A stretch of DNA of 64,000 nt from Haloprofundus salinisoli. GTDB taxonomy: Archaea > Halobacteriota > Halobacteria > Halobacteriales > Haloferacaceae. Every line of letters begins with the position of its first letter. Within the stretch, counting starts at the first letter, position 1. Shown here piece by piece: positions 41,988 to 42,537 of the stretch. The position numbers and the translations under genes were made by a program. The notes under the pieces are model-generated. The model saw only the letters and a program-made list of their open reading frames with translations. It did no database searches and was not told where the DNA came from. The stretch lies in NCBI RefSeq assembly GCF_020097815.1, contig NZ_CP083663.1, positions 2,480,001 to 2,544,000 of the forward strand, read 5' to 3'.

Positions 41988-42137
41988 ACCCGCCTTACTT
42001 GCTCTGCTGATTTAAACCCGTGCCTGAGCGGGACTCGGCGGCCGCGTAGGACCGCACGCAGTCGGTCTCTGCGTCGCCAGATCGCTCTGTGACTCTGATT
42101 CGGCGCGACGAGAGCCACCGCTTTTCGGTGTAGTTTC

Positions 42138-42188
42138 GGTAGAATTGTGCGTGGGTGCTTGTCCCTTTGAGGGGTTAGCACCTGCATC
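42138..42188. repeat. 51-base direct repeat, copy A
   Basis: This segment is identical to 42396-42446 and contains a stem GGTGCT...AGCACC enclosing CCC-TTTGA-GGG. It also contains the octamer TGCGTGGG, the same as the tRNA-Leu 3' end. It is followed by a 49-base hairpin-rich insert (42189-42237) that is missing in copy B. Confidence 0.85.
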
Positions 42189-42237
42189 GTTCTCGGCGGC
42201 GGTGCCGCCTCGATTGTGGCGGAACGAAGTTCCGCCC
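42189..42237. repeat. Hairpin-rich insert X
   Basis: It holds two perfect palindromes: GGCGGC-GGT-GCCGCC (42195-42209) and GGCGGAAC-GAA-GTTCCGCC (42218-42236). It interrupts the junction between repeat A and the decayed tRNA copy, a junction which is uninterrupted in copy B. Confidence 0.7.
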
Positions 42238-42243
42238 TTGCGA

Positions 42244-42353
42244 TGCGTGGGACCGGATTTGAACTTCCGTCGTTCCACTGCGCTTCACGACGGCGTTCGG
42301 AGTCGGTTATACCGACTCCTCACCGGCGGACCTCTACGGATTGCACCCTCAAC
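42244..42353 (-). pseudogene. Decayed duplicate of tRNA-Leu split by a palindromic insert
   Basis: Compared with the intact tRNA-Leu, the 3' end through the T-loop is preserved (27 identical bases, 42238-42264), followed by a 57-base insert Y (42265-42321), then 16 identical bases of the T-stem/variable region (42322-42337). A weaker match to the anticodon loop (GCACCCTCAAC, 42343-42353) ends the similarity. Insert Y has arms CCGTCGT/ACGACGG (42267-42293) and the perfect hairpin GGAGTCGGT-TAT-ACCGACTCC (42299-42319). The D-arm and 5' acceptor strand are absent, so it cannot form a functional tRNA. Confidence 0.72.
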
Positions 42354-42395
42354 TCAGTACCTCGAGATAGAGACGCCGCTTCTCGGTGTGGTTGT

Positions 42396-42446
42396 GGTAG
42401 AATTGTGCGTGGGTGCTTGTCCCTTTGAGGGGTTAGCACCTGCATC
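42396..42446. repeat. 51-base direct repeat, copy B (tRNA-Leu 3' flank)
   Basis: It is identical to 42138-42188 and lies 6 bases beyond the 3' end of the intact tRNA-Leu. On the tRNA strand it would form a stem-loop just downstream of the tRNA, so it may serve in termination or 3'-end processing. Confidence 0.8.
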
Positions 42447-42452
42447 TTGCGA

Positions 42453-42537
42453 TGCGTGGGACCGGATTTGAACCGGCGGACCTCTACAGGACAGCGCCCT
42501 CAACGCTGCGCCGTTGGCCTGGCTTGGCTACCCACGC
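42453..42537 (-). tRNA. tRNA-Leu (anticodon GAG)
   Basis: This 85-base class II tRNA has acceptor arms GCGTGGG (5') and CCCACGC followed by discriminator A, and a D-arm GCCAAGCC...GGC. The anticodon stem CAGCG/CGCTG encloses the loop TTGAGGG with anticodon GAG. A long variable arm follows, then a T-arm with TTCAAAT between CCGG stems. It reads CUC and CUU. CCA is not encoded and no intron is seen. A TATA-like CTTTTAACG (minus strand, 42579-42587) lies about 42 bases upstream. Confidence 0.93.

Follow-up and report, generated by a model that had tools for sequence, protein, structure and literature searches.

The window, by which we mean the whole stretch of 64,000 nucleotides of Haloprofundus salinisoli analysed here (G000:C1:2480001-2544000), contains one intact tRNA-Leu(GAG) beside a duplicated tRNA 3' end, as the initial annotation had described, and ARAGORN and Rfam agree on the gene. 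We refer to the last ~21 nt of this tRNA as its tail (T1). The features of the locus, all on the minus strand, are listed below from the tRNA outwards.

42453..42537, minus: intact tRNA-Leu(GAG) (ARAGORN; Rfam RF00005, 44 bits)
42442..42455, minus: proximal P1 hairpin GCATC-GCAA-GATGC at the tRNA 3' end, without X (sequence reading)
42396..42446, minus: proximal conserved trailer element (match of model R1, G000:C1:2522396-2522446)
42352..42395, minus: spacer between the two units (direct repeat D1)
42322..42351, minus: incomplete tRNA of the distal copy, spanning anticodon loop to 5' strand of the T-stem (left boundary identical in relatives)
42265..42321, minus: Y, 57 nt, a module of two hairpins within the distal T-loop (position common to other genera; compensatory changes)
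42299..42319, minus: Y hairpin 1, GGAGTCGGT/ACCGACTCC (119/119 pairs in 17 distinct sequences)
42261..42298, minus: Y hairpin 2, CCGTCGT/ACGACGG (102/102 pairs in 17 distinct sequences)
42238..42264, minus: distal tail copy T2, from the T-loop to the 3' end plus ATCGCAA (100% repeat D2)
42189..42237, minus: X, 49 nt, a pair of hairpins in the loop of the distal P1 (fold z -5.1; also L003, L005, L007, L020, L027)
42137..42188, minus: distal copy of the conserved trailer element (match of model R1, G000:C1:2522137-2522188)

The repeats were confirmed at the coordinates first given: a direct pair of 78 nt with 92% identity (42111-42188 and 42369-42446), the final 51 bases of which are identical, an identical 28-nt pair (42237-42264 and 42446-42473) and an identical 16-nt pair (42322-42337 and 42472-42487). 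X and Y were likewise recovered with two hairpins each, and they fold beyond dinucleotide shuffles, with z values of -5.1 for X, -4.3 for Y and -5.1 for the whole distal copy, and only 0-1 of 200 shuffles as low in energy. X sits in the loop of a GCATC/GATGC stem, while hairpin 2 of Y is prolonged into the tail by GAAC/GTTC. An archaeal intron in the T-loop was considered for Y and rejected, as by inspection only no bulge-helix-bulge could be drawn and each hairpin is self-closing. The proximal trailer is also structured, having the GCATC-GCAA-GATGC hairpin and, in its 51-nt element, a hairpin of its own (P2), whose terminal part is a copy of the acceptor 3' strand CCCACGCA. The same proximal P1 without X is found at L002, L004, L006, L008 and L010-L018. 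The spacer contains a short hairpin and recurs partly behind the distal trailer; ~100 nt of trailer and spacer are all that parts the tRNA from the distal half in the window. The next gene past the distal trailer (MPKYSTGSG..., 41987-41466) probably encodes an MBF1-like factor. An Rfam 15 search of the locus gave nothing above the gathering score except RF00005, the tRNA itself.

The initial annotation took the distal copy for a decayed one, broken by the later insertion of X and Y. We searched 148 genomes of the family and read 30 loci, all of which have the trailer behind tRNA-Leu(GAG). The same split copy, with Y at this T-loop position, is present in at least 10 haloarchaeal genera besides that of the window; in four Haloferax genomes that have it, the stem sequences of Y are different. 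In a scan of named genomes, the split junction was found in Haloferax larsenii, profundi, marinum and gibbonsii, in Haloglomus, Haloarchaeobius, Halorientalis, Halorhabdus and Halovivax, and in Halorarius, Natronosalvus, Halovenus and unclassified MAGs. Both Y hairpins are paired throughout the 17 distinct inserts (221/221 base pairs). For hairpin 1, all 119 cells are paired, where shuffles reach at most 90%, and there are 18 double changes against no more than 9 in shuffles; for hairpin 2, all 102 cells are paired, with 20 double changes against no more than 13. The split copy thus has the same anatomy across the class, and its hairpins are kept by compensatory changes; since such changes contradict decay, the reading as a decaying relic fails.

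X is not an insert but a part of the ancestral trailer, found also in relatives with a single copy, where it behaves as a variable domain of zero, one, two or more hairpins. It is present in the single-copy genomes G010, G055, G070, G101 and G129, and absent from G036 and most Haloferax. In tandem genomes, X is mostly absent in the first copy and present in the second (G000, G084, G126 and G123), while G090 has it in both. Single-copy states with or without X are what deletion between the direct repeats, upstream or downstream of X, would leave, and repeat-mediated deletion is documented in Haloquadratum (PMC3119063). In the mbf1 tree, where several forks are weakly supported, each of the four Haloferax tandem genomes lies beside a single-copy genome. 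Repeated loss from an ancestral tandem fits best, better than repeated gain, and the alignment of relatives largely bears out the split copy as the ancestral state, an outcome that the initial annotation had named as refuting its view.

A search of the window's own genome for X and Y, as the initial annotation had proposed, matched only the tails of tRNA-Leu(UAG) and an orphan hairpin. Near-identical copies of the inserts are therefore absent, but structural homologues of Y lie behind many tRNA genes. A survey of the 51 tRNA matches of this genome (~50 tRNA genes) and the DNA downstream of them revealed a second tail, with at least 16 of 20 identical bases, behind 16 of the ~50 genes; in the control with the tails of other tRNAs, this level is reached in 1.2% of comparisons. 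The second tail is identical (20/20) for eight tRNA genes (Gly CCC, Phe, Ser GGA, Glu CUC, Arg GCG, Leu UAG, His and Leu GAG), and 16-19 bases agree for eight further ones. The Leu(GAG) locus is thus one of about 16 such places in the genome.

Three further observations were made in this genome. Outside the window, tRNA-Leu(UAG) (G000:C1:2765194-2765379; L198, L199, L246) is followed at a distance of 102 nt by an identical second tail, and the hairpin module there (CCAGAGGAC..GTCCTCG) is of a different type. At G000:C1:2337170-2337202 (L200) there is an orphan hairpin unit, GTTTGAAC..GTTCAAATC, in a 3-kb stretch where ARAGORN finds no tRNA; either a tRNA gene may have been lost here or the unit may have moved. 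The spacer hairpins at L239, L243, L223 and L253, which belong to tRNA-Ser CGA, tRNA-Glu CUC and a Gly/unassigned tRNA pair, share a frame of the kind CTCCGAGCGG-stem-TTTCAT-stem-CCGCGAGGCTCGG. As this frame is common to the spacers of different tRNAs, spacer modules also recur between tRNAs.

Tracing Y-like hairpins outside Leu(GAG) to other tRNA genes led to a family of which the window locus is one array: class-wide tRNA-tail hairpin units that lie behind tRNA genes of Halobacteria. A unit consists, in order, of the tRNA tail (T), a spacer hairpin (S), an inverted copy of the tail (T'), a hairpin module (M) and a direct copy of the tail (T). The window version is built on the tail of tRNA-Leu(GAG), with X as S and Y in place of M, and is fused to the near-universal trailer. 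The module was followed with the 19-mer GAACCCTGGAAGTCGCAGC (at most 2 mismatches), which is present in 109 of 184 Halobacteria genomes, in up to 9 copies, the reversed control pattern being rare. Elsewhere in the phylum it was found in 1 of 124 genomes, the level of the reversed control. We inspected 65 module loci, a sample that leans to the best match of each genome; in 63 an intact tRNA gene of the same strand precedes the module by 36-344 nt, and in 48 the host tRNA's own tail then follows the module. The hosts cover more than 20 isoacceptor types, among them Ser, Arg, Gly, Leu, Phe, Asp, Ala, Thr, Gln, Pro, Met, Val and Glu. Units are 100-125 nt long and gene-less, and tandem units with a period of ~120 nt were found in G209 (three units), G217 and G278, with longer ones in G219 and G193.

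Short palindromes are common in a G+C-rich background, so the argument is built not on palindromes alone but on location, on tRNA specificity and on compensatory changes. In the module helix GGAAG/CTTCC the pairs vary (GC, CG, TA and others); 395 of 413 are intact (95.6%), where shuffles reach at most 87.9%, and 32 cells show double changes, where shuffles give no more than 15, although the shuffle controls leave the shared ancestry among the sequences in place. Irregularities are conserved too: of 59 modules, 55 keep a T-T mismatch and 54 keep the CT side of an internal loop. For the inverted arm, complementarity averages ~8.7 of 11 positions with own tails and ~7.7 with the tails of other tRNAs; it is largely generic, as T-loops are alike, and the tRNA-specific part therefore rests on the covarying positions. 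At T-loop position 4 the arm gives T-A 44 times and C-G 22 times, with 7 exceptions (T-G 1, C-A 6), and at position 6 the pairs are T-A 60, A-T 7, G-C 2 and C-G 1. Stems change in compensated pairs, and the folded single strand is therefore what is preserved.

Tails of this kind are used by integrases. A second tail lies behind tRNA-Leu(UAG) in all five genomes of the genus, with differing spacer and module types. In G036, a 2.35-kb element with a tyrosine integrase (PF00589) lies between the first Leu(UAG) tail and a regenerated tail, and is followed by two hairpin units and a reading frame resembling the N-terminus of that integrase. G070 has the left end of a related element, placed after the second and not the first Leu(UAG) tail (L273, G070:C1:1031600-1037500); its truncated reading frame is like the integrase N-terminus, with no Pfam match. 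As the G070 end lies at the second tail, tail copies may be alternative landing sites. In G279, an element of ~15.6 kb with an integrase and an MCM gene lies between tRNA-Phe and its unit. Integrase elements are thus found at first and at second tails, so both serve as attachment sites, and in G036 and G279 the hairpin units are on the host side, outside the integrated elements. The initial annotation had suggested an element using the tRNA-Leu 3' end: integrase-bearing elements do occur at tRNA-Leu(UAG) tails in two congeneric species, but none lies between the window copies. Its view of the duplicated tRNA 3' end as a leftover of integration holds insofar as tails are integration sites in relatives, and not in its reading of the copy as decaying.

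Traces of insertion and of viruses were also found at Leu(GAG). In G228, two Leu(GAG) trailers are separated by an insertion of ~3 kb that has a reading frame of 836 aa (L096, G228:C1:1373300-1378300); the arms at its edges, CTTGATTAG/CTAATCAAG, are still complementary, though their match to the tRNA is lost. Two IMG/VR viral contigs (68.5 and 52.5 kb; L119, L120) contain the 3' half of tRNA-Leu(GAG), beginning at the anticodon loop and complete to the 3' end; an attachment site would be expected to look like this. Two module types were searched in 2.9 million viral contigs and were absent from them, so the module was rejected as an attP arm of viruses.

The reading that we tentatively put first, at somewhat less than even confidence, is that the units are candidate folded, non-autonomous elements built on tRNA-tail attachment sites. 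The tails would be the attachment sites of tRNA-targeting tyrosine recombinases, through which gene-less hairpin elements would be inserted, duplicated, shuffled and deleted, as folded attC sites are in integrons. Recombination between direct tail repeats would delete units on either side of X and leave single-copy relatives with or without it. In favour of this reading are the place of the modules behind tRNA genes, the second tails in the window's own genome, the arms that follow the tRNA, the compensated stems and kept T-T mismatch, the tandem arrays, the integrase elements at tails, the G228 insertion, the two viral contigs and the distribution of X. Several points speak against such elements: the large integrated elements examined lack the module at their own ends, the module types are missing from the viral contigs and the units have no genes, and the Leu(GAG) trailer is near-universal, single-copy and strongly conserved. 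A more specific version, which we consider speculative and rather unlikely, is that these are integron-attC-like, tRNA-specific, gene-less folded units that grow in tandem and re-copy the tail both ways, and so would offer extra landing or decoy sites to viruses and plasmids.

The Leu(GAG) trailer deserves separate consideration. Its covariance model R1, built from 25 sequences, has 97.8% of cells paired and 13 double-change cells against 5 by shuffling, and finds a match, usually a single one, in 132 of 155 Halobacteria genomes and in 49 of 59 genera. In the 30 loci checked the trailer always lies 6-104 nt behind tRNA-Leu(GAG), any second copy being behind the first, and its 3' strand repeats the tRNA acceptor end. 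The triplet after its hairpin is ACA in many species and ATA, AAA or ATC in others, and the TGA/GA stem flanks also vary among species. The ACA triplet prompted a comparison with H/ACA guide RNAs (e.g., sR-h45), which have a pseudouridylation pocket, a kink-turn and an ACA box; in the trailer the triplet is inconstant, Rfam gives no match and the literature search gave nothing. A like-built trailer was seen behind tRNA-Leu(CAA) in G325 and G182 (L126, L127), where the tail CCCTCGCA recurs at the end of an element formed of GCATCGC..GATGC and a hairpin. Near-universal, single-copy and strongly conserved, the Leu(GAG) trailer resembles a functional RNA rather more than it does a mobile element.

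This trailer, which is next to its tRNA in every locus checked and has covarying pairs, is the strongest case for units that are structured RNAs. On this reading, the units would be transcribed as pre-tRNA trailers and act as a folding switch or as a processing decoy for tRNA 3' maturation, the inverted tail pairing with the tRNA's own tail or with the downstream copy. We regard this as possible but less probable than the folded elements. All units checked lie downstream on the tRNA strand, though the direct tail copy shares this strand by construction. The arms overall give 42 G-T against 25 A-C, as expected of RNA pairing, but this excess is not strong evidence because the arms of type-1 modules give ~26 against ~28. 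Most units are, moreover, patchy between close relatives, as expected of dispensable elements, and several tRNAs are immediately followed by TTTT-like runs, which are possible transcription ends.

Template switching during replication at tRNA hairpins would have written the tail copies and would keep palindromes perfect from arm to arm without selection. That hairpins can arise and persist in this way, with compensatory changes, is known (PMC8794818), and the order of tail, inverted tail and tail is what two fold-back switches would produce. We nevertheless judge it improbable as the full account, since it leaves unexplained why one module sequence recurs in many genera behind tRNAs that are unrelated, and should correct the very imperfections, the T-T mismatch and the CT loop side, that are kept in nearly all modules. 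It may well contribute to the tRNA-specific arms even if it is not the origin of the modules.

The units might also be PATE-like palindromes derived from IS200/IS605, moved as single-stranded hairpins by a Y1 transposase and targeted by base pairing to the tail. The ends of such elements are irregular hairpins, and short palindromic PATEs, some of 52 bp, are abundant in haloarchaea (PMC3119063). However, PATEs show no target duplication and are not linked to tRNAs, whereas the present units duplicate the tail and almost all of them follow a tRNA, which makes this origin very unlikely. A decaying relic of one past integration with chance palindromic inserts is hardly credible: attachment duplicates left by integrases do typically consist of a tRNA 3' half that begins at the anticodon loop (PMC8371274), and partial tRNAs are noted beside full copies in Haloferax gibbonsii (PMC7921747), but the position and pairing of the inserts are conserved across genera, X is found in single-copy relatives and the genome has 16 similar cases.

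tRNA tails are the commonest integration sites of prokaryotes, and the DNA behind them is usually dismissed as scar tissue. The tRNA tails described here for haloarchaea are an active, structured part of the genome, not debris. Their use as integration sites has been reviewed (PMC8371274), the integrative elements of Haloferax have been treated (PMC7921747), and in Haloferax gibbonsii LR2-5 a count was made of partial tRNAs that stand next to full copies, which were taken for remnants (PMC7921747). We found no published hairpin units that copy the host tRNA tail in both orientations in the literature searched, which was mostly open-access. The family is apparently undescribed and may explain many of the 'partial tRNA' annotations in haloarchaeal genomes. 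A class-wide family of hairpins that copy tRNA tails and change in compensated pairs would be a genome element of a new kind. The multiplication of tRNA attachment sites, the choice of integrases between original and copy, and possible folding switches in haloarchaeal pre-tRNAs thereby become accessible to test.

Several known systems resemble the units in part. Like a tRNA integration scar (attL/attR), the locus repeats the 3' part of a tRNA directly next to the intact gene, and the same tails are used by integrase elements in relatives. However, no integrase or cargo lies between the window copies, such elements being at other tRNAs in G036 and G279. A scar is expected to have no conserved structure beyond the core, while the units have covarying hairpins and an inverted tail, and share their architecture behind many tRNA types and in tandem. 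The attC sites of integrons have a core site GTTRRRY, with gene cassettes between sites and an integrase that acts on the folded strand. The units are like them in being folded, irregular hairpins conserved in structure rather than sequence, arranged in tandem, with complementary arms that match the primary site, but their arms read GTTCRAAT, not GTTRRRY, and there are no gene cassettes.

REP/BIME sequences are dispersed paired palindromes associated with RAYT transposases. As in these, the units are paired short hairpins with conserved bubbles, and dispersed; unlike them, they have host-tRNA-specific arms and are located only at tRNAs. PATE and SMR-A of Haloquadratum (PMC3119063) are also short, gene-less, palindromic and numerous in haloarchaea, with core deletion via repeats. 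PATEs, however, have near-terminal palindromes without target duplication and hit transposons, whereas the units duplicate the tail (48/65), and SMR-A, of ~110 bp, has inverted ends and no target duplication and lies in PATE/IS605, whereas the units lie behind tRNA genes. The element thus apparently fits none of the known kinds considered here, although the process that underlies it may prove to be a known one.
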